A program made the translations under genes and the position numbers. Shown in pieces: positions 46,899 to 63,859 of a DNA stretch of 64,000 bases. The number at the start of each line of letters is the position of its first letter. The stretch's first letter is position 1. Source of the stretch: Candidatus Krumholzibacteriota bacterium. Its GTDB lineage: Bacteria > Krumholzibacteriota > Krumholzibacteriia > JAJRXK01. The stretch lies in assembly GCA_024276305.1 (NCBI GenBank), contig JAJRXK010000108.1, forward strand, positions 72,172 to 136,171, given 5' to 3'. The notes beneath the pieces were generated by a model. That model ran no database searches. It was not told where the DNA came from and saw only the letters and a program-made list of their open reading frames with translations.

Positions 46899-48862
46899 TG
46901 AGAACTCGGTGGAGTCTGGGAATGGCGGTGGTCCTCGCTCTCGCCTCGCCCCTCGGGGCGAGGGCTCAGAGCCCGCCCCGAAGTCCGGCGCCGCCCACGG
47001 GGCAGCCCCAGGATGCCGAGCTGCTGAAGTTGCGCCAGCAAGTGGAGATGTGGATTCGCAGCGGGCAACCCGACCGGGCCATCGAAGTCCTGGAGCGGCG
47101 CCGCAAGGAGGAAGGGCTGGATCTCGGTCTCCGCCGCCGTCTGGCGAGCCTCTACCGCGAGGCCGGACGCTATGCCGACCTCGAGGCCCTGGTCCTGGAG
47201 CAGAGCCAGGGCGATCTCTCCCGGGCCGATCTGGGGGAGTTGCGGTTGTTGGCGGAGGCCCGCTACCGCCAGGGACGGGACGAGGCGGCGTGGGAAGCCC
47301 TGGAGGCCGTATTGGCCGGCGACCCTCACGATGCCGGCCGATTGCGGATGGTGGCCTCGGTGCTCGCCCAGAATCGCCACCCCGGTCAGGCCATCGAAGT
47401 TCTCGAAGACGCCCGGGCCGCGGCCTCCGACCCCACCCTCTTCGCGCAGATGCTGGCGCGAATCCACACCCAATTGGACCAGCCGGTGAGGGCGGTCGAG
47501 GAATATGCGAAGATGATCGTGGGCAACCCGCTCAACATCAGCCTCGTCCGCAATCAGGTCCTGCAGCTGGCGGATCGGTGGCCCGAGTCCCTGGAGGAGT
47601 TCATCGATGCCATGGGTTCCGCCCAGGCCTCCCATCCCCAGGTGGGGCAGCTGAGTCTCATCGTAGCGGAATTGCAGCTGCGGGCGGGCCACCCGGAAGA
47701 GGCTTGGCAATCCCTCGAAGTCCATCTCTCGGATCCGAACATGGCTCAGGACCTCTTGCGTCTGGCGCTGGCGGGTCTGGCGGACGGACGCAGCGGGGCC
47801 GAGGACGACGAGACCGCCCTCCAGGGTCTGCGCCTTTCGGCGCGGATCGCCCGAGGCCTCCTCGACCGGGGAGCGTTGCCGCGGAGCCTGCAACCTCGGG
47901 CCTGGGATACCCTCACCCGGACCCTGATGGCCCTTCTGGAGAACCCCGCCTTCGCCCAACAGGATTCCCGGCGGCAGTTGGAGATGCTGGAGAAGACTCG
48001 CGAAGCCATTCTCACCATGCAACGCGAGTTCTCGGGGAATCGGCTCAGTGCGGTCGCGCTCCTCCGTCTGGCCGAACTCTACTCGACCTCTCTGCACCGG
48101 CCTCGTCGTGCCATCGAGATCTACCGCAGCGTCCGCGATGATCCGAACTCCACCCGCGAGAATCTCCAAGTGGCCCGCATGGGCTTGGCGCAGAGCTACG
48201 TGGCGCTCGGGGACACCGCGACTGCACGGGGGCTCTTCGAGGAGATGGGACAGGACATGGGCTTCGTCGAGGGTCAGGGAAGAGCGCACTACTACCTGGG
48301 ACAGCTCGACTTCATGGCCGGGGACTTCGCACGGGCCGAAGATCGTCTCAAGGCGGTGGCCGCTGAGTCTCCCCGCGCGGACTATGCGAACGACGCCTTG
48401 GATCTGGCCCTGGTCCTGGCCGAGGAGAAGATGTCGGGGGCCACCGACGAGGCGGCATTGGGGCACTACGGGGCGATGCTCTACCACCGCAGTGTGGCCG
48501 ATCGTCGCGCCATGCGGGAGGACCTCGAGGCCATCCTGAATGGCGAAGGGCGGACCCCTCTCCGGATGAGGGCTCGCCTGGACTTGGCCCGGCTCGAATT
48601 CGACGACGGGGATGCGGAGGCGGCCCTCGCGGAGCTCGACCTCCTGCTCCGGGAGGCTCCCTCGAGCCGACGAGTGCCCGAGGCGCTGGAGTGGAAGGGT
48701 GAGGTGTTGGAGAGTTTGGGCCGCGAGGGGGAAGCCATGAAGGTCTACGAGCAGCTGCTCGTCGATCACGGGGACTACGTCCAACTCGATCGGATTCGCG
48801 ATCGGATCCGGGATCTGGAGAGCCGGGGCATCGGGTTGGCGACGGAGGAGGAGCTGCCTTGA
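46895..48862 (+). CDS. Exported tetratricopeptide-repeat protein
   Basis: A protein of 655 residues with a signal peptide (about 1-26, ending AR-AQ) and helical repeats of TPR type over most of the length: GQPDRAIEVLERRRKEEG, GRDEAAWEALEAVLAGDP, LHRPRRAIEIYRSVRDDP, GDTATARGLFEEMGQDMG and GREGEAMKVYEQLLVDHGDYV. Such proteins act as periplasmic scaffolds. AGGAG lies just before the ATG at 46895, which overlaps the upstream stop. The next gene starts within the stop codon (TTGA). Together with its neighbours it forms a tightly coupled four-gene unit. Confidence 0.8.
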   Translation: MMRTRWSLGMAVVLALASPLGARAQSPPRSPAPPTGQPQDAELLKLRQQVEMWIRSGQPDRAIEVLERRRKEEGLDLGLRRRLASLYREAGRYADLEALVLEQSQGDLSRADLGELRLLAEARYRQGRDEAAWEALEAVLAGDPHDAGRLRMVASVLAQNRHPGQAIEVLEDARAAASDPTLFAQMLARIHTQLDQPVRAVEEYAKMIVGNPLNISLVRNQVLQLADRWPESLEEFIDAMGSAQASHPQVGQLSLIVAELQLRAGHPEEAWQSLEVHLSDPNMAQDLLRLALAGLADGRSGAEDDETALQGLRLSARIARGLLDRGALPRSLQPRAWDTLTRTLMALLENPAFAQQDSRRQLEMLEKTREAILTMQREFSGNRLSAVALLRLAELYSTSLHRPRRAIEIYRSVRDDPNSTRENLQVARMGLAQSYVALGDTATARGLFEEMGQDMGFVEGQGRAHYYLGQLDFMAGDFARAEDRLKAVAAESPRADYANDALDLALVLAEEKMSGATDEAALGHYGAMLYHRSVADRRAMREDLEAILNGEGRTPLRMRARLDLARLEFDDGDAEAALAELDLLLREAPSSRRVPEALEWKGEVLESLGREGEAMKVYEQLLVDHGDYVQLDRIRDRIRDLESRGIGLATEEELP

Positions 48863-50139
48863 GCGCATTGTCCCCCCGCGGGGTGATCATCGTCCTGCTC
48901 ATCGCCGGACTCTTCATTGCCGTCCTCCCCGTGCACGCGGGCACCGTGCTCGTGCCCATGGACGACAGCCAAACCAATCATCTCAAGGCCTACGGTCTCG
49001 CCTTCAAGATTCTGCAGAAGGGCCGGAGTGTGAGCTGGCTGCTCAACTATCGGGGGGGGAGTTTTCTCTACCAGTCCTCTCCCTACGCCGACCTCCAGGC
49101 CCGACTCATGGGGGTGTCCACCGAGAGCTTGAGCCCGGGTGCGGTGGCTTCCATCCGTCGTACGGTCGCCGAAGAGAACATGGACGAGGTGCTGCTGGAG
49201 GTTCCCCCTCGGATCGCGATCTACGCACCGCCGAATTTCCAACCCTGGGACGATGCCGTGACGCTGGCTCTGACCTACGCGGAGATCGAATTCGACACCA
49301 TCTTCGACACCGAAGTTCTGGCCGGAGGCTTGGCCGACTACGACTGGGTTCATTTGCACCACGAGGATTTCACCGGGCAGTACGGGAAGTTCTACGCCAA
49401 CTTCGGTCACATGCAGTGGTACAAGGATCAGCAGGCCTTCTTCGAGAGGACCGCGGCGGCCTTGGGATACGGCACGGTTCGCGAACTCAAGGGCGCAGTG
49501 GCCCTGACCCTCAAGGACTACATCGCCAATGGGGGCTTCCTCTTCGCGATGTGCAGCGCGACGGACACGTTCGACATCGCCCTGGCCGGATTGGGCGTCG
49601 ACTTCGTGGCCGCAGTCTTCGACGGGACCCCGGTCGAAGCGGGGTGCTGCCGCACTTACATGCACTACGAGAACTGTCTGGCCTTCCAGGGATTCCAGGT
49701 GATCACCGATCCTGCGATCTACGAGTTCAGCGACATCGACACCAGCAATTACGCCGCGATTCGCAGCGCCGAGGCGGACTACTTCACTCTCTTCGAATTC
49801 AGTGCCAAGCACGATCCCGTGCCCACCATGCTGACTCAGTGCCACCGATCGGTGATCAACGGCTTCATGGGTCAAACCACTGGCTTCCAACGGAAGGTCC
49901 TGAAGAACCACGTGGTGGTCCTGGCCGAGGTGGAGGGGAGCGATGAAGTGAAATACATCCACGGCAATCTCGGCCGGGGAACCTTCACCTTCTACGGGGG
50001 CCACGACCCCGAGGACTACACCCATCAGGTGGGAGATCCGCCCACCGACCTCGATCTCTACCCCCACAGCTCGGGCTACCGACTCATCCTCAACAACGTC
50101 CTCTTTCCGGCCGCGAAGAAGAAGGAGCAGAAGACCTGA
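48859..50139 (+). CDS. Conserved exported protein, often mis-named asparagine synthetase B
   Basis: A protein of 426 residues with a signal peptide (about 1-28), then VLVPMDDSQTNHLKAYGLAFKILQKGRSVSWLLNYRGGSF, a stretch I recognise from proteins of Bacteroidota and relatives that databases often label asparagine synthetase B although no synthetase motifs are present. The middle holds DYDWVHLHHEDFTGQYGKFY and a glutamine-amidotransferase-like NGGFLFAMCSATDT; the end has YGGHDPEDYTHQVG. The fold may be a DUF4159/GATase-like module. TTG start at 48859 preceded by a GGAGGAGGAG stretch. Function unknown; context suggests the envelope. Confidence 0.75.
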   Translation: MSALSPRGVIIVLLIAGLFIAVLPVHAGTVLVPMDDSQTNHLKAYGLAFKILQKGRSVSWLLNYRGGSFLYQSSPYADLQARLMGVSTESLSPGAVASIRRTVAEENMDEVLLEVPPRIAIYAPPNFQPWDDAVTLALTYAEIEFDTIFDTEVLAGGLADYDWVHLHHEDFTGQYGKFYANFGHMQWYKDQQAFFERTAAALGYGTVRELKGAVALTLKDYIANGGFLFAMCSATDTFDIALAGLGVDFVAAVFDGTPVEAGCCRTYMHYENCLAFQGFQVITDPAIYEFSDIDTSNYAAIRSAEADYFTLFEFSAKHDPVPTMLTQCHRSVINGFMGQTTGFQRKVLKNHVVVLAEVEGSDEVKYIHGNLGRGTFTFYGGHDPEDYTHQVGDPPTDLDLYPHSSGYRLILNNVLFPAAKKKEQKT

Positions 50140-51302: not shown

Positions 51303-52862
51303 ATGTACGTCGTCGACAATTCCACCATGCGCGAAATCGATCGGCGTACCATCGCCGCCGGGATTTCCGGCCTCGAGCTCATGGAGAGAGCGGGAGCGGG
51401 CATCGCGGAGTGGTTGACGGCGCGTCCCGACTGGCTGCAGGGCTGCACCCTCCTGCTCTGCGGAAGGGGCAACAACGGGGGAGACGGGCTGGTCGTGGCC
51501 CGCCACCTCCACGAGGGAGGCCATCGGGTCTGCGCGATCTGCGTGGCCGGTCAGAGGTCGGAAGAGGCTGCGGTCCAATTCGGCCGGGCCGTCGCGGCGG
51601 GGGTCGAGGTGGTGGAAGTCGGCGAAGACCAAGCTTCCCGACTTCTGGAACTCTGTCGGGATCGCGGAGGTCGTCTGGTGGTCGATGCGCTCCTCGGCAC
51701 CGGTTTTCGCCCCCCCCTGCGCGAGGGTCTGGGGCAATGGTGCGAGGTTCTCGGAGGCCTGGGCCGAGATGTGGTGGCGGTGGATGGACCCACCGGCCTG
51801 AGCGGCGATGACGGCTCTCACGACCGTCGATGCCCCCGGGCTCGGTGGACCCTGAGCCTCGGAGCTCCCAAGTGGGGGCTGATCTCCCCTCTCGGACGCG
51901 ACCGCTGCGGTCGCCTCGAGATCCTCGACCTGGGTTTTCCCCCCGAGATCGTGGAGGAGGTGGGACGGAGTCAGGAGCGGGTGGCGGAGTGGGTCGATGC
52001 CGAGTGGGTCTGGCGCCGGCTGGGACGGATTCGGATGGACGCCCACAAGTACTCGGTGGGCACGGTGGCCGTTTGCGGGGCGAGCGTCGGCATGTCCGGA
52101 GCGGTCACCCTGGCTTGCCACGGGGCGTTGCGAGCCGGGGCCGGTCTGGTCGAGGCCCTCGTACCCCGATCGGTGCAGCCGGTGGTGGATGCCCAGTGTG
52201 TGGAGACTCTGGTCCGGGCGGCGGCCGAGGATTCCCAGGGAGGGTTGGCCCTCGAGTCGGCCGGGGCGCTGATGGAGCTGGCCCGGCGGCGGGATGCGCT
52301 GGTCCTGGGACCGGGGGCGGGACGCAGTCCGGAGACTCGATCTCTGTTCCGGGACTTTCTCACCCTCCACTGCGCTTCGCTTCCCATGGTCGTCGATGCG
52401 GATGCGCTGCATGCACTGGCCGCCGACGAGCTCGAGCTGAGCCCCTCCTGCATCTTGACCCCGCACAGTGGAGAGCTGCGCCGACTCGAGCAGGTCTCGC
52501 AGGAAGAGATCGCCGACCGGCGAGTGGAGATCGTGGGCGCGGCGGCGCGACGTCGGAACGCGGTTCTGTTGCACAAGGGAGCGCCCACCCTGGTGGCGGC
52601 TCCCGAGGGGAGGCTCGCGGTGATCGGTGCCGGAGGGCCGGGCCTGGCCACCGCCGGCAGTGGGGATGTTCTGGCCGGGGTTTGCGCGGCCTTCCTGGCC
52701 GCGGGTCTGCCCTCCTTCGAGGCGGCGGCCGCTGGAGCCTGGGTCCACGGTGCGGCCGGAGATCGGGCCGAGGCGCTGCGGGGAACGCTGGGAGTGGTGG
52801 CCACGGACCTTCCGGCTGCGGTGGCCCTCGTTCTGCGCGAAATCGAAGGTCTTCCCCAGTGA
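51303..52862 (+). CDS. nnr: Bifunctional NAD(P)H-hydrate epimerase / ADP-dependent dehydratase
   Basis: A protein of 519 residues that repairs hydrated NAD(P)H. The N-terminal NnrE part (about 1-215) has NSTMREIDR, LMERAGAGIA, GRGNNGGDGLVVAR and the conserved VDALLGTGF and AVDGPTGL. The C-terminal NnrD part (about 225-515) has DAHKYSVGTVAV, LVLGPGAGRS, VVDADALHAL, LTPHSGELRRL and AGSGDVLAG, the last matching the usual TGTGDVLAG with Ser. ATG at 51303 with GGGAGA about 6 nt upstream; a TTG at 51285 is possible. The stop overlaps the tsaD GTG start. Confidence 0.95.
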   Translation: MYVVDNSTMREIDRRTIAAGISGLELMERAGAGIAEWLTARPDWLQGCTLLLCGRGNNGGDGLVVARHLHEGGHRVCAICVAGQRSEEAAVQFGRAVAAGVEVVEVGEDQASRLLELCRDRGGRLVVDALLGTGFRPPLREGLGQWCEVLGGLGRDVVAVDGPTGLSGDDGSHDRRCPRARWTLSLGAPKWGLISPLGRDRCGRLEILDLGFPPEIVEEVGRSQERVAEWVDAEWVWRRLGRIRMDAHKYSVGTVAVCGASVGMSGAVTLACHGALRAGAGLVEALVPRSVQPVVDAQCVETLVRAAAEDSQGGLALESAGALMELARRRDALVLGPGAGRSPETRSLFRDFLTLHCASLPMVVDADALHALAADELELSPSCILTPHSGELRRLEQVSQEEIADRRVEIVGAAARRRNAVLLHKGAPTLVAAPEGRLAVIGAGGPGLATAGSGDVLAGVCAAFLAAGLPSFEAAAAGAWVHGAAGDRAEALRGTLGVVATDLPAAVALVLREIEGLPQ

Positions 52863-53884
52863 GAGTCCTGGGAATCGAGAGCAGCTGCGACGAGACCAGC
52901 GTGGCCTGTGCCGACGCCGAGGGGATCCGCTCGAATCTGGTGAGCAGTCAGGTGGACCTCCACGCCCCCTTCGGCGGAGTGGTTCCGGAGATTGCCTCGC
53001 GGGCTCATCTCACCAATGCCATCCCCGTTCTCGACGCCGCTCTGGCCGAGGCAGGATGGGAGCTGAAGGAGATCGATGCCGTCGCCGCCACTGCGGGGCC
53101 AGGTCTCATCGGTGCGGTGTTGGCGGGACTCTGCTGCGCCAAGGCCCTGGCCTGGAGCCTCGATCGCCCCTTCGTGGGAGTCCACCACATCGAGGGGCAC
53201 ATTCTGGCCAACGACATCGAAGAGCCGATGCACCTTCCCGCAGTGGTGCTCGTCGTCAGCGGAGGGCACACCGAGACCCTGCTCGTCGAGGAGGTCGGAA
53301 CCTACTACCGCCTCGGCTGCACTCGGGACGACGCGGCGGGCGAGACCTTCGACAAGTCGGCCCAGCTCCTGGGTTTGGGCTATCCCGGAGGCCCCCAGAT
53401 CCAGAGGGTGGCCAAGGGGGGGGATCCTCTCCGCTTCCCCTTGCCCCGAGCGTTGATGGCCGCCGGAGATCTCGACTTCAGTTTCAGTGGGCTCAAGACC
53501 GCGGTACGGCTTACGGCGGAGAAATTGCCCCGGCCTCTTCTCGAGGCGGATGTCGCAGATCTGGCCGCTGCCCTGGAAGAGGCGGTGGTGGAGGTGCTGC
53601 TTCGCAAGACCGAGCGGGCGATCGAAGCGATGAGAGAGCGGAGATTGCGAGGGCTCTACCTCGCGGGTGGGGTCGCGGCCAATGCATCTCTTCGCCGGGG
53701 CTTCCTCGATCTTGCCGCCCGGACCGGATTGCATTTCCGCCCGCCCTCCTTGGCGTACTGCACGGACAATGCGGCGATGATCGCCTGGGCCGGACGCCAC
53801 CGCCTCCTCCTGCGAGGCGGAGATCCTCTCGATCTGAGGGCCTTTGCCCGAGCTCCTCTGGAGAGCTGGACCGCTCGACCCTGA
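52859..53884 (+). CDS. tsaD: tRNA N6-threonylcarbamoyltransferase TsaD
   Basis: A protein of 341 residues, the catalytic ASKHA-fold subunit that transfers threonylcarbamoyl to A37 of ANN-decoding tRNAs. It begins VLGIESSCDETSVA, has the iron-binding HHIEGH (HxExH) motif, VSGGHT, DAAGETFDK and GLGYPGG, and ends with AGGVAANASLR and the Asp in CTDNAAMIAW. Length is typical. GTG start at 52859 overlapping the preceding stop (GTGA), so it is coupled to the NAD(P)H-repair gene. tsaB, tsaC and tsaE are not in the window. Confidence 0.95.
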   Translation: MRVLGIESSCDETSVACADAEGIRSNLVSSQVDLHAPFGGVVPEIASRAHLTNAIPVLDAALAEAGWELKEIDAVAATAGPGLIGAVLAGLCCAKALAWSLDRPFVGVHHIEGHILANDIEEPMHLPAVVLVVSGGHTETLLVEEVGTYYRLGCTRDDAAGETFDKSAQLLGLGYPGGPQIQRVAKGGDPLRFPLPRALMAAGDLDFSFSGLKTAVRLTAEKLPRPLLEADVADLAAALEEAVVEVLLRKTERAIEAMRERRLRGLYLAGGVAANASLRRGFLDLAARTGLHFRPPSLAYCTDNAAMIAWAGRHRLLLRGGDPLDLRAFARAPLESWTARP

Positions 53885-54243: not shown

Positions 54244-55215
54244 GTGGAAGATCGCATCCTCATCGTCGACGACGAGCCCCACATCCGCCGCATCCTCCGC
54301 TATCTGCTCGAGCAGCAGGGCTATACCGTCGAAGAGGCCGGCAATGGACAGGAGGCCATCGACCTCCTCGAACAGGGCATCAATCCCGACCTCATGCTTC
54401 TCGACCTGATGATGCCCCGGATGGATGGCTTTCAGGTCTGCGAGCGCGTGCGGCAGAATCCCGCCACCGCCCAGCTCCCGGTGATCATGGTCACCGCCAA
54501 GGGCGAGGTCAGCGACCGCATCCGCGGTCTCCAGGGCGGCGCCAACGACTATCTGACCAAGCCCTACGACAACAAGGAACTCCTCGCGCGGGTCCACAAC
54601 CTCCTGCAGTGGAGCCGATCCCAGCGGGACGCGAATCCTCTGACCGGCTTGCCCGGCAATCAGGCCATCGAGAGCGCGCTCCAACAGTGCATCGCGGAGC
54701 GGCGCTCCTTCGCATTCATGTATGTGGACATCGATCACTTCAAAGCCTTCAACGACTGCTATGGCTACCAGCGGGGGGACGAGCTCATTCGTTTCACCGC
54801 ACGGATCCTGCGAGAGTGCACCGAAGAATTCGGCGAGGGTGATGACTTCGTGGGTCACATCGGCGGGGACGATTTCTGCGTGATCACCTCGGTGGAGCGA
54901 GGGGAACAGATCGGCGAATGCATTGCTCTGCGATTCGAGAAGGAATCGATCCAGTTCATCGACGAAGAGCATCTCCGGGCCGGTCGTATTCCGGCCCGGA
55001 GTCGTCAGGGCGACTCCGGGGTGTCGGATTTGCCGTCGGTCACCGTGGCCCTGGTCCTCGACGAGGGAGGCGAATTCGAGCACTGGGCTCGAGTGAGCGA
55101 CGCCGCGGCCGAACTCAAGAGCTACGGCAAGAGTCTCACCGGGAACTCCGTGGTGCGGGAGCGACGTCGTCCGGCGACCGTGGATCCGGTGAATTCCCAG
55201 GAATCGCTCGAGTGA
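54244..55215 (+). CDS. Receiver-GGDEF response regulator (GGDDF variant)
   Basis: A protein of 323 residues. The receiver (1-120) has VDDE, phospho-Asp in MLLDLMMPRMDG, the VTAK Thr/Ala and KPY lysine, all intact. The GGDEF domain follows after a short linker: NPLTGLPGN, YVDIDHFKAFND and IGGDDF. The fourth position is Asp instead of Glu, and no RxxD inhibitory site precedes it. Diguanylate cyclase activity is possible but cannot be assumed. GTG at 54244 is chosen because it begins right at EDRILIVDDE with GAGG 7 nt upstream. It is the first gene of a five-gene signalling run; the next kinase starts 31 nt downstream. Confidence 0.85.
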   Translation: MEDRILIVDDEPHIRRILRYLLEQQGYTVEEAGNGQEAIDLLEQGINPDLMLLDLMMPRMDGFQVCERVRQNPATAQLPVIMVTAKGEVSDRIRGLQGGANDYLTKPYDNKELLARVHNLLQWSRSQRDANPLTGLPGNQAIESALQQCIAERRSFAFMYVDIDHFKAFNDCYGYQRGDELIRFTARILRECTEEFGEGDDFVGHIGGDDFCVITSVERGEQIGECIALRFEKESIQFIDEEHLRAGRIPARSRQGDSGVSDLPSVTVALVLDEGGEFEHWARVSDAAAELKSYGKSLTGNSVVRERRRPATVDPVNSQESLE

Positions 55216-55246
55216 TCGGCCGACGGATCAGGGGCGGGGACGGTCC

Positions 55247-58200
55247 ATGACGGCAGTGGTACAGAGCTATCGCAATTTTCGCTTCCTGGTGCGCGGTGTG
55301 CGCTGGGTGGAGTTGGCGATCTGTGCCTTCATCGTGATCTTCGCCCGCGAGGTGGCCCAGCTCGAGTTCGACCGCGAACCGGTATTGATCGTCTTCGGCC
55401 TGGGAATCGTCTGGAACACGGCCTTCTGGTACGCCGGTCGGAGGCATCTCCTCCGAGAGAGGGGGCCCGCCGGGGCTCGATTGCTGGTTTGGTGTTGGGT
55501 GGTCGCCGATGTGGTGACCAACCTCCTGGTGATTCTCTTCACCGGCGGAGTCGCTAGCCCCTTCCTCTTCTCTCTCGCCCTGCCAGTCATCCTCAGCACC
55601 ATCGCCCTCGGCCGGGCCCGCGTCTGCTATGGAGTCGCGGTGGGATCGGCTCTGGGGGTGGGGGCGATCTGGGCCATGCAGGACGCCGGATCCTTGCCGG
55701 TCTTCGCGGCCTATGCTCCGGTGACCCAACAGCGGTTGACCACCCCCGAGGCAGCGGCTGCGATTCTGGCCATCCTGGCCACGGTCCTCTCGCTCTTCGT
55801 CTACATGGTGTTTCGCTTCCGCCCGAATTTCTTCGTCTTTCAGGAGTCGCTGAAGGACGGGCGCTTCCGCATCCGAAACTTTCGCGCCGGGCACCTGCGG
55901 GAACTCCAGCTCGACCGAGTGGAGAGCGTGGGTCCGGAGGACCTGCTCGAGGAGGCGGTCCAGGGCCTGACCCTGGCCCGGGACATCTCCTTCGGAGCCG
56001 CGGTGATCCTGCCCAGCGGGTCGGAGACCCTGGGCGGCGAGGCAGGGAAGGCTTGGCACCGCGGACTCACCCCGCAGCGCGCAGTGAGCACCACGCGCAG
56101 GCAGGTCATTCCCACTTGGAGCGAGTGCGACACCGAGAGCCGCACTCTCTTCGAGCAGCTCCGCATCGGGGAGAGCGATGATCTCTTCGAGGGGCCCTTC
56201 ACCGTACTTCAAGAGGCGGGTCTCTTCACTTCGGTCGATTCTGCGGACAGCTATCTGGCGACAGCGATCGGTGAGTTGGGACGCCCCGAGGTTCTGCTCA
56301 TCGCGGGAGTGAGTCATCCCATCGAGGACCGCAGCGCGGTGGTGATGCACCTCTTCCATGTGGCGGCCCAACTTCGCCCCCTCTTGGCCGCCGAATCACG
56401 GATGTGCCAGATGCGCGGTGAGTTGAGTGCCCTGCATTCGGAGAACCAGAGTCTGAGTCGGGTGAACAAATTGCAGTCGGACTTCGTGAGCATCGCCAGC
56501 CATGAGCTCAAGACTCCCCTGACTGCGATCGGAGCCTATACCGATGCACTGCTCATGAACGCCGAGAATTCCGACTTTCCCGAGCGTCGAGAGTTTCTCA
56601 CCGTGATCCGCCACGAGAACGACCGCCTGTTGCGGATGATCAACCGCATCCTCGACTTCTCGCAGATCGAGTTCGGACATCGGGCGCTCAACCGGAGAAG
56701 GACCGATCTGCGGTCGATCGTCGAGGAGAGCCTCCTCACCCTGCGCCCGCTCATCGAGGAGAAGGACATCGAGGTTCGGATCGAGGCAGATCCCACTCTG
56801 AGCGAAATCGCAGTGGATCCTGACCTCACCAAGCAGGTGTTCCTGAATCTCATCGGCAATGCGGCGAAGTTCAGTCCCGCCCACACCTCGATCACGGTGG
56901 GGATCGACGAGGAAGCCACTCGGTTGGTGGCCTGGGTGCGAGACCAGGGTCCGGGCATTCCTCCCGACGAGATCGAACATGTCTTCAAGCAGTTCTATCG
57001 GGTGCGGGGAGATGGGCGGGAAGTGCCGGAGGGAAGTGGTCTCGGACTGGCGATCGTCAAGAATATCCTCGACATGCACGGTGGAAGCATCGACGTCGAG
57101 AGCGAGGAGGGAGAGGGGGCCTGCTTCCGCTTCGTGCTGCCCAAGCAGAAGTACACCAATCACGAGGTGCCGACGGTGCTCGGTGAGGTCTCGCTCCGCC
57201 CGGAATTCAAACATCTGATGAGTTTGCTCGTGCAGATGCTCGCCGACTACATGAACTGCAAGATCGTCTCGGTGATGCTCCTGACCGCCGATCGAGAGAG
57301 TCTGCGGGTCCAGGTGGCCTACGGACTCGACGAAGAAGTCGTCCAGAATGCTCGGGTCGAAGTCGGCGACGGAATCGCCGGACGGGTGGCGGCGAGCGGC
57401 CGGCCCCTCCTCGTGGAGGATCTTCGACACGAGGATCACTACGAGGGCCAATATCCGTCGCAGTACGAAACCCACTCCTTGGTGAGTGTTCCCATGCGCC
57501 TCGACACTGAGGTCATCGGGGTCATCAATTGCAACAACAAGGTCACCGGCGAACCCTTCAATGCGGACGATCTCGGATTGCTGATCACTCTGGCCGAAAA
57601 AGTCACTCGTGCGTTGAGCCGGGCGATGCGTTTCGAGGATGTCCGCGACGAGCTAGAGCGCACCATCGGAGCCATCGAGGCGCTCATCGAGATGGAAAGT
57701 GCCGAGGTCGGAACTTCTCGGTTGGCGGTGCGCTTGGCCATGGATCTGGCCCGGCGGATGGGCTTGACCCGTCACCAGATTCTGGCTCTGCAGTATGCCT
57801 GTCTGGTGCACGACGTGGGAATGACCTCGGTCGGGGCGGAGATCGTGGGCAAGCGCGGACCGCTCACCGACGACGAATTCGATCGAGTGCGGGCCCATCC
57901 CAACCAAGGGGTGAGCCTGATCGAGCCCTTCCTTTCCGCCGACGAAGTGGATGAGATCATTCGCTATCACCACGAACGGGTCGATGGCGGAGGCTATCCG
58001 AGCGGACTCACTGGGGAACACATTCCGTTGCCGGCGCGCATTCTGGCGGTGATCGATGCCTATGATTCGATGACTTCGAACCGGCCCTACCGCGCGTCGA
58101 GGACCCCGGCCGAGGCGGCGGCCGAGCTGGTGACCAACGCCGGAAAACAATTCGACATCGAAGTCGTACGCGCCTTTCTCGACGTGCTCGCGGAGAACGC

Positions 58201-58267
58201 TGAACTCTCGCGGAGCGAATACCTGGCCCTCAAGGAAGAACAACCATGGCTTCACCTCGTATCTTGA
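55247..58267 (+). CDS. Sensor histidine kinase fused to GAF and HD-GYP domains
   Basis: A protein of 1,006 residues. Order: an N-terminal membrane region with about six TM helices (15-190), a sensory linker, HisKA (SIASHELKTPL; His about 418), HATPase (NLIGNAAKFSP, DQGPGIPPDE, GSGLGLAIVKN), a GAF domain (about 650-800, with VGDGIAGRVAASGRPLLVEDL) and an HD-GYP domain (about 820-985). The HD-GYP part has HDVG (Met follows instead of the usual Lys), HPNQG and YHHERVDGGGYPSGL, so metal ligands look intact and c-di-GMP phosphodiesterase activity is plausible. Combining kinase and HD-GYP in one chain is unusual. It overlaps the following receiver gene by 22 nt. Confidence 0.88.
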   Translation: MTAVVQSYRNFRFLVRGVRWVELAICAFIVIFAREVAQLEFDREPVLIVFGLGIVWNTAFWYAGRRHLLRERGPAGARLLVWCWVVADVVTNLLVILFTGGVASPFLFSLALPVILSTIALGRARVCYGVAVGSALGVGAIWAMQDAGSLPVFAAYAPVTQQRLTTPEAAAAILAILATVLSLFVYMVFRFRPNFFVFQESLKDGRFRIRNFRAGHLRELQLDRVESVGPEDLLEEAVQGLTLARDISFGAAVILPSGSETLGGEAGKAWHRGLTPQRAVSTTRRQVIPTWSECDTESRTLFEQLRIGESDDLFEGPFTVLQEAGLFTSVDSADSYLATAIGELGRPEVLLIAGVSHPIEDRSAVVMHLFHVAAQLRPLLAAESRMCQMRGELSALHSENQSLSRVNKLQSDFVSIASHELKTPLTAIGAYTDALLMNAENSDFPERREFLTVIRHENDRLLRMINRILDFSQIEFGHRALNRRRTDLRSIVEESLLTLRPLIEEKDIEVRIEADPTLSEIAVDPDLTKQVFLNLIGNAAKFSPAHTSITVGIDEEATRLVAWVRDQGPGIPPDEIEHVFKQFYRVRGDGREVPEGSGLGLAIVKNILDMHGGSIDVESEEGEGACFRFVLPKQKYTNHEVPTVLGEVSLRPEFKHLMSLLVQMLADYMNCKIVSVMLLTADRESLRVQVAYGLDEEVVQNARVEVGDGIAGRVAASGRPLLVEDLRHEDHYEGQYPSQYETHSLVSVPMRLDTEVIGVINCNNKVTGEPFNADDLGLLITLAEKVTRALSRAMRFEDVRDELERTIGAIEALIEMESAEVGTSRLAVRLAMDLARRMGLTRHQILALQYACLVHDVGMTSVGAEIVGKRGPLTDDEFDRVRAHPNQGVSLIEPFLSADEVDEIIRYHHERVDGGGYPSGLTGEHIPLPARILAVIDAYDSMTSNRPYRASRTPAEAAAELVTNAGKQFDIEVVRAFLDVLAENAELSRSEYLALKEEQPWLHLVS

Positions 58268-58635
58268 TCGTTGATGACGAGCAGACCCTGGCACGGGTGC
58301 TCTCCTTCGCTTTCACCAACGAAGCGTACCGCGTCGAAGTCGCTTCCGATGGCATCGACTGCATGAACAAGATCTCCACCTTCGAGCCCGATGCAGTGTT
58401 GATGGACATCATGATGCCCAAGCTCGACGGTCTCGAGACCATTCGACTCCTGCGGCAGCATCGGCTTCACCGGGGCCTGCTCATCGTGGCCATGAGTGCG
58501 AAAGCGCTGCCGTCGGATGAACAGGCGGCCCTCGATGCGGGAGCCGACTTCTTCGTGAAGAAGCCCTTCCAGGTGGCGAAGGTGCTCGAGACGGTCCTCC
58601 AACGCCTCGCCGTTTCCCGGGGAAGCAGGGAGTAG
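58246..58635 (+). CDS. Stand-alone receiver protein (CheY-like)
   Basis: A protein of 129 residues consisting only of a receiver: ILIVDDEQ, phospho-Asp in VLMDIMMPKLDG, MSAK, and the KKPF lysine. No output domain, so it may pass phosphate between the two flanking kinases or control a partner by direct binding. ATG at 58246 lies inside the end of the upstream kinase gene (22-nt overlap); the downstream kinase begins 4 nt after its stop. Confidence 0.9.
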   Translation: MASPRILIVDDEQTLARVLSFAFTNEAYRVEVASDGIDCMNKISTFEPDAVLMDIMMPKLDGLETIRLLRQHRLHRGLLIVAMSAKALPSDEQAALDAGADFFVKKPFQVAKVLETVLQRLAVSRGSRE

Positions 58636-58639
58636 AATC

Positions 58640-61387
58640 TTGGTCTGGCGCGCACTGCATCTCGCGGAGCTCTTCTCCGACCCCCGATGGGGTTGGGTGG
58701 TGGCGCTCTGCGCGTTGGTGGCGCTCTTTCTGGTCGCCAATGGCTTCGTGCGTCAGCGATGGAAAGCCATGGGACTCGGATCTCGAATTCACGCCCGGGA
58801 GCGAGCCCTCCAACGGGCGCAGCGTTCGGCCCGGGAACTGCGGGAGGTGCAGGCCGCTCGGGCGGCGGAGGAAGCCTCCGCCGAAGCGCCTCCGCGGCGC
58901 AGTGCTCGGGGCGACGTCCCCTCTCCCGTGGACGGACTCGATCGGCACCGCACCTTCGAAGTCCTGGGCCGGCTGGGTCAGTTCGAACAGCTTCCGGAGC
59001 TCTTTCGCGAGATCGTGCGGTCGGTGGGTGAGGAATTCGGTTTCGAGAGAGCGATTCTGCGGGTCTACAATCCCCAGACCCGGCTCTTCGAGGCGAGGGC
59101 CTTTCATGGTTGCGACGACGAACTCGTGAGCCGGATCTCCACCACCGATGTGACCCTCGACTGCTACGCGGGGATGGCCCGACGGGCGTTGAGAGTGGGG
59201 AGCAGCTACCGGGTGAGCGCGGCTGACGATCTCTGGCCGGATCGACTGCGACCGCCCCGGTCGGCAGATCCGAGGGACTGGCGCCCCGAGGACTTCGGCG
59301 AGGCCCGGCTCGAAGCCCAAGGAAATGACGACTACCTCGTGGTGCCGATGCTCGGTGAAGAGGATCGGGTGGTGGGCTATTTCTGCGTCTCGATGCCCGA
59401 AGACCAGGACCTTCCCGGCGAGAACACCCTGATGTTCCTGGAGATCCTGGCCCACTACGCGGTGAACGCTCTGAACCAGGCTCGCTTGCGCAATCGTCTC
59501 CAACGCCGCGACATCGAGTATTCCATCGTGAGCGAACAGCTGCGCGAATGGCAGAGCACCAGGGACAATTTCGTGGCGAATGTGAGCCACGAGCTGCGGA
59601 CGCCGCTGACGTCCATCCGGGCCTACGCCGAGACCCTCCAGCGCGGACGCGACGCGATGGATCCGGCGACGCTCAACGAATTCGTCGACGTCATTCTCCA
59701 CGAATCGGAGCGTTTGGCGCGGTCCTTCGACGACCTCCTCGACCTCTCTCAGTATCAGGGCGGCAGTCGGGTTCAGGTGGTGAGCGAATTCGATCTGGCG
59801 GTGGTGATCAGCGCGCAGGCTAACGCTGCACAGCAGCGAGTCAAGGAGTTGGGCCTCGAATTCGAATTCGACGTGCCCACCGAGGCGATCCTGATTCAGG
59901 GCGACGAGAACGGCATTCGTCAGGTGGTGGCGAATCTCCTCGACAACTCGATCAAGTTCACCCCGCCCCCGGGGAAGGTCACCCTGCGTTTGAGGGTGCA
60001 GGGGGGAGTGGCCCGCATCGAGGTGGAAGATTCCGGAATCGGCATGGAGGAGCATGAGCTCTCCAAGATCTTCGAGCGATTCTACCAGGTCGACGATTCG
60101 TCCACTCGAAGCTACGGGGGACAGGGACTGGGGCTGGCCATCTGCCGGGAGATCGTCTCTTGGCACCACGGTCGAATCTGGGCCGAGCGCCGGCGTTCGG
60201 GGGGATCGCGCTTCGTCCTCACTCTTCCCGTGCGCGGACTGGTGATTCGCCGTTCGAGCGCCGATCTTCCGGCCGACGTGAGCGAACGTCAGCAGTGGGA
60301 GGCCTTCCTGCAGCTCTCGATCTCGTTGATCTCGGAACTCCTCGAGGCTCAGGTGGCTTCGATCCTGCTCGTGGATCCGGTCCATGATGTGCTGCGCATC
60401 GAAGCGGCGATCGGATTGCCTCAGGATGTCGTCGAGAGTGTGTTGGTCGATCGTGGTGAGGGCGTGGCGGGTCAGGTGTGGAAGACCGGACAGTCTCTGC
60501 TGGTCGAGAATCTCGACGAGGACGACCGTTTCCGGGGCCTTCACAACGACGTGGCCTACGACCACCGCAGTTTCCTCAGCGTTCCGCTGATCTGGCAGGG
60601 ACGGGTGGTGGGAGTGGTGAACGTGAACAACCACCCCGAGGGTCGTGCCTTCTCCGATGACGATCGCTTGCTCCTGGAAGCCCTGGCCGAGCGCATCTCG
60701 GGCGCCCTCGAGAGTTTCGAGCGCTACCGTGCGGGATACCGCCGTCTCGCCTCGGTGGAAGCCGGAGTCCGGGCCATGCTCGATGTGGGGCGCGAACGGC
60801 ATACGGCCATGCGGGATCTGCTCATCTCGATCGGACTGGAGACCGCCCGCAGACTCTCCCTCGAGGAAGAGCACCTTCGTGCCCTGGCCTATGCTCTGCG
60901 CACCTACGACTTGGGGCTCGCCCAGGTGAGCGAGCAGATCCTGCGCAAGATCTCCCCGCTGACCAGCGAAGAGCGTCATCACATCGAGAACCACGTCCAT
61001 CTCGGAGCCGAGCTGGTGGCGGAGCTCGAACCATCGGCCCAGGTCCGCAACATCATTCTCCACCACCACGAGAACTATGATGGGAGCGGATACCCCGAGG
61101 GTCTGCGGGGGGAGGCCATTCCGGTGGGGGCGCGCATCGTGAGGATGGTGGATGCCCTCTCGGCGCTGCTCCATGATCGACCCTTCCGGGCCGCGATGTC
61201 CCTCGACGAAGCGGTTGCCCTGCTGAGGGAGGGGATCGGCCGACGCTTCTGTCCCCGAGTCGCCCCCGTCTTTCTGGAGCTCGTGGCCGATCGCCAATAC
61301 GAGATTCTGGCCGCCCATGTGCGACGAGGTGCACGCGCCCTCGACGACGAACTCGAACTCATCGACGCGCATCCCACGCTGCACTGA
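58640..61387 (+). CDS. Sensor histidine kinase with two GAF domains and a degenerate HD-GYP domain
   Basis: A protein of 915 residues, a paralogue of the kinase at 55247 with a different front end. One TM helix (about 16-38), a helical linker, GAF 1 (about 105-280), HisKA (VANVSHELRTPL; His about 316), HATPase (NLLDNSIKFTP, DSGIGM, GQGLGLAICRE), GAF 2 (about 550-690) and an HD-GYP-like domain. In the latter the HD pair reads YD (ALRTYDLGL, near residue 755), while NHVHLG and HHHENYDGSGYPEGL persist. Phosphodiesterase activity is therefore doubtful; it may be a c-di-GMP-binding or purely structural module. TTG start at 58640, GGGAG upstream. Confidence 0.85.
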   Translation: MVWRALHLAELFSDPRWGWVVALCALVALFLVANGFVRQRWKAMGLGSRIHARERALQRAQRSARELREVQAARAAEEASAEAPPRRSARGDVPSPVDGLDRHRTFEVLGRLGQFEQLPELFREIVRSVGEEFGFERAILRVYNPQTRLFEARAFHGCDDELVSRISTTDVTLDCYAGMARRALRVGSSYRVSAADDLWPDRLRPPRSADPRDWRPEDFGEARLEAQGNDDYLVVPMLGEEDRVVGYFCVSMPEDQDLPGENTLMFLEILAHYAVNALNQARLRNRLQRRDIEYSIVSEQLREWQSTRDNFVANVSHELRTPLTSIRAYAETLQRGRDAMDPATLNEFVDVILHESERLARSFDDLLDLSQYQGGSRVQVVSEFDLAVVISAQANAAQQRVKELGLEFEFDVPTEAILIQGDENGIRQVVANLLDNSIKFTPPPGKVTLRLRVQGGVARIEVEDSGIGMEEHELSKIFERFYQVDDSSTRSYGGQGLGLAICREIVSWHHGRIWAERRRSGGSRFVLTLPVRGLVIRRSSADLPADVSERQQWEAFLQLSISLISELLEAQVASILLVDPVHDVLRIEAAIGLPQDVVESVLVDRGEGVAGQVWKTGQSLLVENLDEDDRFRGLHNDVAYDHRSFLSVPLIWQGRVVGVVNVNNHPEGRAFSDDDRLLLEALAERISGALESFERYRAGYRRLASVEAGVRAMLDVGRERHTAMRDLLISIGLETARRLSLEEEHLRALAYALRTYDLGLAQVSEQILRKISPLTSEERHHIENHVHLGAELVAELEPSAQVRNIILHHHENYDGSGYPEGLRGEAIPVGARIVRMVDALSALLHDRPFRAAMSLDEAVALLREGIGRRFCPRVAPVFLELVADRQYEILAAHVRRGARALDDELELIDAHPTLH

Positions 61388-61401
61388 GAAAGGACCGGTC
61401 C

Positions 61402-61779
61402 ATGACCAAGAGCATCCTCGTGGTCGACGACGAGTTGTACATAGTGAACATCCTCGACTTCTCTCTCGAGAGCGAGGGCTTCCGCGTGCGCAGTGCCGCC
61501 AACGGCGAAGAAGCCCTTCGGATGGCCGTCGACGAGATTCCCGATCTCATCATTCTCGATGTGATGATGCCCAAGATCGACGGCTTCGAAGTCTGTCGCG
61601 CGCTGAAGGCCAAGGCCGAGACCAAGCAGGTTCCCATCGTCCTGCTCACCGCCAAGGATCGCGATGCCGACCGGAAGAAGGGCGAGGAAGCCGGCTGCGA
61701 CGCCTACATCACCAAGCCGTTCAGCCCCAGCCGTCTCATCGACAAGGTTCGCGAATTGCTCGGGGCTCCTTCCCGCTGA
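61402..61779 (+). CDS. Stand-alone receiver protein (CheY-like)
   Basis: A protein of 125 residues, a lone receiver with VVDDE, phospho-Asp in IILDVMMPKIDG, LTAKD and TKPFSP. It is close in plan to the receiver at 58246 and to the N-terminal receiver at 54244. ATG at 61402 with AAAGGA about 8 nt upstream, 14 nt after the preceding kinase, so it is the last gene of the signalling cassette. A 43-nt gap separates it from priA. Confidence 0.92.
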   Translation: MTKSILVVDDELYIVNILDFSLESEGFRVRSAANGEEALRMAVDEIPDLIILDVMMPKIDGFEVCRALKAKAETKQVPIVLLTAKDRDADRKKGEEAGCDAYITKPFSPSRLIDKVRELLGAPSR

Positions 61780-61822: not shown

Positions 61823-63859
61823 ATGAACGCTCCGCACCCTCAGGCCCACGCCCCCTCCGAACTCTGCGGCTATGTGGAGGTCGCCCTGCCCCGGCCCCTC
61901 CGTCAGACCTTCACCTACCGCATCGAAGAGGTGCGAGCTCGGGAGGATCTCATCGGGCAGGCGGTGGAAGTGCCCCTGCGCGGACGCAAGATGGTGGGGG
62001 TGGTGGTCGAGGCCCATCCCCGTACCGAACGCCAACGCTTGGTTGGGGTGGGGCGGTGGCTGCCCCCGGAATACCGCCTCGATGCCCACCGCCTCGATTT
62101 GGCCACTTGGATCGCCGAGTACTACGGTTGCGCCCTCGGAGAAGCTCTGGCCCTCTTTCTGCCGCCCCAACCCGGGACCCAGCGCCGCTCTTCTCGCCCT
62201 CCGGACTCCCCTTCCGAGGAGGGCGGGGGCGAAGTTCCCCCGGAACTCACGTCGGAGCAGGCCGCCGCGGTCGCCGCGGTGCAGATGGCCCTGGAGTCCG
62301 GAGGCTACGAGAGCTTCCTCCTCCACGGCATCACCGGGAGTGGCAAGACCGAGGTCTACCTCCGTCTCATCCGGACGGCTCTGGACCGAGGGAGAAGCGT
62401 TCTCTTCCTCCTCCCGGAGATCGCGCTCACTCCTCAGACCTTGGCCCGGTTGGAGGCCCGCTTTCCGGGACAGGTGGAGGCCTACCACAGCCGTTTGAGC
62501 CACGGCGAGCGCTGCGCGGTGTGGGAAGCCGCGGCCCGGGGGGAAGTGCCGATCGTAGTGGGGCCCCGAAGTGCGGGCTTCGTTCCCCGCCCGGATCTGG
62601 GACTCATCGTGGTCGACGAGGAGCACGACGGGAGCTACAAGGCGGAGGATCGGCCTCGTTACCACGCGCGGGATCTCGCTCTCCTGCGGGCGCGACGCCA
62701 GCAGATTCCGGTGGTCCTGGGTTCGGCCACTCCGAGTCTGGAGAGTTGGCAAAATGCCCTTGCCGGCAAGCACCGTCGTCTCCATCTCTCTCGCCGAGTG
62801 GGAGGGGAGGGCGGCCTGCCCGAAGTGGAAGTGATCGACCGGCGGCGGGATGACGACCGTGGGAGTCCTCTCTCCCCCCGCCTCGCCGATGCCATCGGCG
62901 CATGCATCGAGAGCGGGGACCAGGCCATCATCTTCCACAACCGACGCGGATTCGCCCGGTGGTTGCAATGCCACGACTGCGGGGGAGTGGTGGAGTGCCC
63001 TCGTTGCGACATCAGCCTCACCTATCACCTGAAGGGGGAAAGGCTGCACTGCCACTATTGTGGATACGAGAAGCCCGCGCCGGCGGACTGTCCCGACTGT
63101 GGAGCGGGAGGTCTGCGCCAGCACGGTGCGGGGACTCAGAGGGTGGAGGTGGCCCTGGAGACCCTCTTTCCCCAGGCTCGGATTCTGCGCTTGGACCAGG
63201 ACAGCACGGGCCGGAAGCATTCGCATCAGGAGATTCTCGAGGCCTTCCGTCGGGGGGGAGCCGACCTGCTGGTGGGGACCCAGATGGTGGCCAAGGGACT
63301 GCACTTTCCCCGGGTGACCCTGGTCGGGGTGGTGGATGCCGACGTGGGTCTGCACTTTCCCGACTTCCGGGCCCACGAGCGCTCCTTCGCTCTGCTCACC
63401 CAAGTGGCGGGGCGCAGCGGGCGCCTGCGTCCGGGGAGGGTCCTGGTGCAGACCTTCGATCCCGACCATCGGGTCCTCGAGGCCGCCCAGCGCCATGATG
63501 TGGAGGGTTTCCTGAGATCGGAGCTCGAAGAGAGAAGGCCTCTGGCCTATCCCCCCTTCGGTCGGTTGACCGCGCTCACGGTCACCGCCCCCACCGCGGA
63601 CCTGCTGGACGCGGCCTTGGACTGGTTGGCCGCGGCCTTGCGCTCGCTGTTGCGTCAGACCGAAGTCTCGGTCCTGGGTCCGGCCCACGCGATGTTGCCG
63701 CGGATCAACCGTCGCCACCGTGGTCAGATTCTCCTCAAAGGGGGGCTCAGTCCCGCCGCCAAAGCCGGAATCCTGGAGCTCTTCGATCGACTTCGAACCA
63801 AGCCACGCGCGGGTCGCCTGGACCTGCACCTCGATGTCGATCCCCAGCACCTCCTCTGA
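61823..63859 (+). CDS. priA: Primosomal replication restart helicase PriA
   Basis: A protein of 678 residues (E. coli PriA is 732). The N-terminal DNA-binding part opens with YVEVALPRPLRQTFTYRI; the helicase core has Walker A GITGSGKTEVY (about residue 170), DEEHDGSYK and GSATPSLES; and the zinc region holds eight Cys in CHDCGGVVECPRC and CHYCG/CPDCG (about 381-433). GTQMVAKGLHFP and VAGRSGR follow, and a C-terminal domain closes the protein. PriA reloads the replisome at stalled forks. ATG at 61823 is supported by its position beside the N-terminal motif; no ribosome-binding site is visible, and a TATACT lies 6 nt upstream. Confidence 0.95.
   Translation: MNAPHPQAHAPSELCGYVEVALPRPLRQTFTYRIEEVRAREDLIGQAVEVPLRGRKMVGVVVEAHPRTERQRLVGVGRWLPPEYRLDAHRLDLATWIAEYYGCALGEALALFLPPQPGTQRRSSRPPDSPSEEGGGEVPPELTSEQAAAVAAVQMALESGGYESFLLHGITGSGKTEVYLRLIRTALDRGRSVLFLLPEIALTPQTLARLEARFPGQVEAYHSRLSHGERCAVWEAAARGEVPIVVGPRSAGFVPRPDLGLIVVDEEHDGSYKAEDRPRYHARDLALLRARRQQIPVVLGSATPSLESWQNALAGKHRRLHLSRRVGGEGGLPEVEVIDRRRDDDRGSPLSPRLADAIGACIESGDQAIIFHNRRGFARWLQCHDCGGVVECPRCDISLTYHLKGERLHCHYCGYEKPAPADCPDCGAGGLRQHGAGTQRVEVALETLFPQARILRLDQDSTGRKHSHQEILEAFRRGGADLLVGTQMVAKGLHFPRVTLVGVVDADVGLHFPDFRAHERSFALLTQVAGRSGRLRPGRVLVQTFDPDHRVLEAAQRHDVEGFLRSELEERRPLAYPPFGRLTALTVTAPTADLLDAALDWLAAALRSLLRQTEVSVLGPAHAMLPRINRRHRGQILLKGGLSPAAKAGILELFDRLRTKPRAGRLDLHLDVDPQHLL

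Follow-up and report, generated by a model that had tools for sequence, protein, structure and literature searches.

A priA-linked cassette of response regulators and kinase-HD-GYP fusions shared by Krumholzibacteriota and Eiseniibacteriota

This work reports that a response regulator of the receiver-GGD(D/E)F type and a receiver adjoining priA are the constant unit of a regulatory locus in Krumholzibacteriota and its sister phylum Eiseniibacteriota (older name, Candidatus Eisenbacteria), and that histidine kinases fused to an HD-GYP domain belong to this locus since long ago and in many genomes, though not in all. Based on the residues that these proteins keep and lose, we propose, with a probability of about one half, that the locus encodes a conserved two-component module, in which kinases carrying pseudo-HD-GYP domains would bind c-di-GMP and control the regulator and the receivers encoded beside them. 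The component parts of the cassette are of kinds already known, and what appears to be new is that kinase and HD-GYP are fused, with residue changes that recur consistently, at a fixed location in two phyla.

The cassette and its occurrence in two phyla

The window, namely the whole 64,000-nucleotide stretch analysed here, belongs to an assembly of 3.5 Mb and carries the five cassette genes, hereafter A to E, between tsaD (52859..53884, + strand; Pfam TsaD, 3.3e-88) as the upstream boundary gene and priA (61823..63859, +; NCBIfam PriA and Pfam PriA domains) as the downstream one. A (54244..55215, +) encodes a receiver-GGDEF response regulator with the variant motif GHIGGDDF (Pfam Response_reg, 3.1e-35; GGDEF, 8.3e-18), and is followed after 31 nt by B (55247..58267, +), a membrane histidine kinase-GAF-HD-GYP protein with the motif HDVGM (Pfam HisKA, HATPase_c, GAF and HD_5). 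The stand-alone receiver C (58246..58635, +; Response_reg, 6.5e-26) overlaps B by 22 nt, and 4 nt separate it from D (58640..61387, +), a GAF-histidine kinase-GAF-HD-GYP protein (Pfam GAF, HisKA, HATPase_c, GAF and HD_5). After a further 14 nt comes E (61402..61779, +; Response_reg, 2.4e-30), a second stand-alone receiver directly before priA, which starts 43 nt after it. ORFs and Pfam confirm the five same-strand genes in the order and spacing of the original prediction; its domain order also stands, except that the extra N-terminal GAF of D had been missed, and the GGDEF domain on the regulator and the HD-GYP domains on both kinases are recognised by Pfam, although the motif of the former is actually GGDDF and D carries YD in place of 'HD'.

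Some five hydrophobic segments lie within residues 13-189 of B, and D has one close to its start, where the N-terminus is uncertain because the start codon is TTG. The membrane region of B (window 55247-55900) contains a GGVASPF stretch resembling the RegB quinone motif GGXXNPF; a quinone-sensing role for this part was dropped, as Pfam 6TM_PilS gave no match to B. Upstream of the cassette, an ORF of 426 aa (48859-50139) has no Pfam match, and an RNA family search across the window returned no match.

The B protein finds matches at E <= 1e-20 in all 80 Krumholzibacteriota genomes searched, some of these matches being other kinases. Among the Krumholzibacteriota loci examined (40 stretches and the window), the exact five-gene order before priA occurs in 14, a small extra kinase stands between A and B without the middle receiver in 13, B is missing in four, and two have A, one kinase and the last receiver only, the remainder being interrupted by contig ends or single cases. 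In Eiseniibacteriota the B profile matches 32 of 47 genomes at E <= 1e-100, and the 21 loci examined there run from A through one or two fusion kinases and a receiver to priA, contig ends aside. Throughout the loci examined, A is the first cassette gene wherever the contig reaches it and priA comes after the last receiver unless the contig ends before it, and tsaD lies beside the cassette in 57 of the related loci searched, in both phyla and with minimal cores included. With 14 loci sharing one gene order, and most of the others as well as a second phylum showing variants of it, the recurrence is far above chance and the cassette is not a local oddity. The view that the genes form a functional unit is therefore upheld by an order and a position kept across genera, families and two phyla, while the opposite picture, with most relatives lacking HD-GYP on the kinase and the genes scattered, was not found overall and holds in a few lineages. 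At a similar threshold, no fusion kinase was found in 200 Gemmatimonadota, 199 Acidobacteriota and 193 Myxococcota genomes, an absence that is provisional because these genomes are samples.

The lineages without fusions delimit the core. A, the last receiver and priA occur together with no fusion kinase in six genomes (G004, G081, G087, G088, G091 and G098), the last of which shows a weak kinase match between A and the receiver; no kinase at all lies at the locus in the other five and in G001, whereas the locus kinase of G002 lacks HD-GYP and in G097 priA alone was recognised. E thus stays beside priA in loci devoid of fusion kinases as well, and it is strongly conserved between both phyla in an alignment of 59 last-position receivers. 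Because genomes without fusions still hold both proteins by priA, the receiver-GGD(D/E)F regulator and the receiver constitute the core, and for the same reason the core function does not include feedback through HD-GYP. C is present in f1 and f6 genomes and absent in f4, f5, f7 and f8, where the small kinase precedes B. This kinase (for example L040, 3538-4404) has about 285 aa and no recognised sensor domain, and its His is kept except in G033, which has Ser.

In a tree of 104 kinases, covering the histidine kinase to the HD-GYP domain, the second kinases of both phyla group together (SH-aLRT 98), opposite the first kinases; the tree is unrooted and comes from a quick search with SH-aLRT support only. 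As it separates first and second kinases of both phyla, a single duplication giving B and D appears to predate the split of the two phyla.

The receiver-GGDDF regulator

GGDDF is found in 56/56 aligned A orthologues. In PleD numbering, the phospho-accepting Asp and the Lys of the receiver, D327, N335, D344 and the GGD residues are kept in all of them, E371 is Asp in all, and R366 is His in 55; K442 is kept in 55 of 56 and R446 is mostly Gly, both positions having been placed by eye, as the PleD piece in the alignment ended before them. The orthologues accordingly have D327, N335 and D344 of a diguanylate cyclase and lack the fourth-position Glu of GG(D/E)EF. A Hypr (cGAMP) enzyme was rejected, with D344 being Asp and not Ser in 56/56.

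Among GGDDF proteins, GSU1937 is active and PA3258, a GGDDF-EAL protein, is reported inactive (PMC8835794). GSU1937 shares the motif with A but, being a Hypr enzyme, has Ser at its specificity site, where A has Asp; A also has a receiver domain. For the proposed c-di-GMP module, the retention of the GTP-type D344 and the one GGDDF enzyme known to be active speak in favour, while the loss of R366, that of R446 in most copies and the inactive PA3258 speak against. The A orthologue of G001 (L227, 2055-3149), which adjoins two receivers and priA with no fusion kinase, reads AHLGGDEF with the canonical Glu, and is useful for judging whether the GGDDF forms are active.

Receiver-GGDDF proteins were also found in Gemmatimonadetes, Omnitrophota, Elusimicrobia, Myxococcales and Nitrospira genomes, with no priA within the 1.5-kb flanks of their genes, so that the motif is not special to the priA locus. 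A GH(I/V/L)GGDDF receiver-GGDEF subfamily extends over several phyla (L233-L262), and at some Myxococcota loci a kinase lies on the same ORF; being widespread, this subfamily is a natural set for the question of GGDDF activity. GGDEF proteins occur in all genomes searched, nearly all of which have more than one, and therefore a c-di-GMP ligand of the kinases need not come from A.

Kinase motifs and altered HD-GYP halves of B and D

Of the 104 kinases aligned, 102 retain the phospho-accepting His of the H-box, the exceptions being L210, where T replaces H, and the second copy in L206, which is broken; the N, G1 and G2 boxes are mostly intact, as in sensor histidine kinases; because of the retained His, the B- and D-type fusions are expected to be real kinases. 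Their C-terminal halves have the HD-GYP fold according to both Pfam HD_5 and Foldseek. With AlphaFold models of the two halves (mean pLDDT 86), the top Foldseek match was PmGH (PDB 4mcw), at E 9.5e-19 with the half of D and at E 1.3e-15 with that of B, and the next best for both was DvhD, an inactive c-di-GMP receptor. The superposition of the two domains is loose (TM 0.4), as a different hinge would lead one to expect.

We scored 105 HD-GYP domains in PmGH numbering, bridged via a canonical HD-GYP of the same genome. K225 is replaced in 105/105 (Met 81, Leu 21, and Val, Ile and Ala once each) and is Met in 34/34 B-type copies. D183 is kept in six and replaced in 99, and H189 is replaced in 104 as aligned; the alignment is gapped at the H189 helix, with eight rows having a His within four columns, so that D183, E185 and H189 are assigned with less certainty than the other positions. 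Tyr stands for H221 in 36/36 Krumholzibacteriota D-type copies, whereas the His is kept in 34/34 B-type copies and in 33/35 Eiseniibacteriota copies. The other positions are kept nearly throughout (D222 and H250 in 104 each, H276 in 103, H277 and D305 in 105 each, Y285 in 101), and in the 36 Krumholzibacteriota D-type copies D222, H250, H277, Y285 and D305 are invariant and H276 is kept in 35. The mean column identity of the alignment is 38-48%, against near-invariance of these pocket residues. Both the full metal-ligand set of an active c-di-GMP phosphodiesterase (H189, H221, D222, H250, H276, H277 and D305) and its catalytic pair D183/K225 are thus incomplete. Elsewhere in the genome that holds the window, another altered HD-GYP protein, with STAS, GAF and HD_5, (L003, 1423-3480; G000:C103) has RDIGM for HDxGK.

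Alanine substitution of H221, H189, K225 or D183 renders PmGH inactive, and its c-di-GMP-bound crystal contains the G-site iron only (PMC4159591). Since both HD-GYP domains lack residues essential in PmGH (PMC4159591), the degradation of c-di-GMP by the kinases, which the original prediction had put forward beside sensing, is disfavoured. Of the two, sensing is favoured; on the active-site residues, the conventional phosphodiesterase reading is rejected for D and unlikely for B. RpfG is without E185 and H189 (PMC4159591), yet is described as active (PMC4159591, PMC3774798), so that the loss of H189 alone is not decisive and B could still be a phosphodiesterase. Were B and the Eiseniibacteriota copies working two-metal phosphodiesterases, the cassette would both make and degrade c-di-GMP. 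B does keep the HD pair, H250, HH, GYP and D305; however, every B-type copy has Met for the catalytic Lys and K225A is inactive in PmGH, D183 is mostly gone too, and the Krumholzibacteriota D-type copies have no HD histidine, and we regard this reading as very improbable.

The main rival to c-di-GMP sensing is a docking function, in which the exposed GYP loop of the HD-GYP domain would bind the GGDEF domain of A and hold the regulator by its kinase, with no nucleotide binding. It would fit the near-invariance of GYP despite the loss of catalysis-linked residues, the constant place of A at the head of the cluster, and the contacts of the RpfG HD-GYP domain with GGDEF domains via the GYP region, reported in work cited in PMC3774798. 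However, the buried metal-site residues H250, H276, H277 and D305 are conserved although docking does not need them, and the A-E pair occurs without the fusions; docking is considered unlikely. A third reading, which we judge distinctly unlikely, gives the altered GGDEF and HD-GYP domains a ligand or product different from c-di-GMP, or takes them as structural remnants; the module would then be a two-component system of the usual kind, linked to a housekeeping signal. Nearly all members do deviate from consensus at identical positions in each c-di-GMP domain of the cassette, and the site beside priA and tsaD suggests a housekeeping link, but D344 of the GTP type is retained along with most of the pocket, the same genomes hold other GGDEF proteins, PilZ proteins are present in 59/78 genomes, and the pocket residues of a mere remnant would not stay conserved over such divergence.

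Proposed mechanism and relation to known systems

For c-di-GMP sensing, the favoured and the most economical reading, we propose the following sequence. First, B, in the membrane, and D, probably with a single span, would phosphorylate and dephosphorylate A, C and E. Second, their GAF-HD-GYP halves would be pseudo-phosphodiesterases, no longer efficient at c-di-GMP hydrolysis, in which the nucleotide pocket and probably one of the metal sites are preserved. Upon binding of c-di-GMP, made by A or elsewhere, to the pseudo-HD-GYP domain, the kinase/phosphatase balance could then shift. We infer the c-di-GMP binding, its allosteric effect, the activity of A as a cyclase and the phosphotransfer partners; sensing by the fusion kinases is plausible by analogy with the systems below.

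In the Caulobacter DivJ/PleC-DivK-PleD system, as the cassette layout would imply here, kinases act on a single-domain receiver and a receiver-GGDEF regulator. PleD is also the best NCBIfam match of A, at a score of 178, below the cut-off of 474; PleD has REC-REC-GGDEF with GGEEF, whereas A has one REC with GGDDF. To our knowledge, none of DivJ, PleC, CckA and ShkA has an HD-GYP domain, and the genes of this pathway, from an unrelated phylum, are not in a single cassette. In Caulobacter, c-di-GMP acts back directly on the kinases CckA and ShkA (PMC7010744). PmGH resembles the C-terminal halves of B and D in its GAF-HD-GYP arrangement, but these halves are fused behind a histidine kinase and are without K225, H189, mostly D183 and, in D, H221. 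DvhD (PDB 9rbz) has the HD-GYP fold with a broken active site, like B and D, and is a c-di-GMP receptor or switch (PMC13090378), although it has wholly lost HD and HH and is not a kinase, whereas B and D keep HH and a partial metal site. PA2572, a YN-GYP protein inactive in c-di-GMP hydrolysis (PMC3774798), carries YN where D carries YD. RpfC/RpfG is likewise a two-component system with HD-GYP and c-di-GMP, but has its HD-GYP on the response regulator RpfG and not on the kinase. A literature search of partial coverage, which is weak evidence of novelty, found no work joining Krumholzibacteriota with c-di-GMP and, on kinase-HD-GYP fusions, only two Leptospira papers mentioning GAF-HD-GYP.

In conclusion, we tentatively suggest, as a possibility clearly below even odds, that the fusions form a kinase class of two phyla, in which the fused GAF-HD-GYP phosphodiesterase has turned into an allosteric c-di-GMP sensor. 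This sensor would decide whether the enzyme acts as kinase or phosphatase on the PleD-like regulator and the DivK-like receivers linked to it, in a core circuit tied to replication restart through priA. The residue pattern makes the sensing idea testable on two protein halves. If true, a second messenger would have another route directly onto histidine kinases, via an HD-GYP pseudoenzyme, and the cassette would represent a core regulatory locus common to two phyla that are mostly uncultured and have almost no experimental biology.
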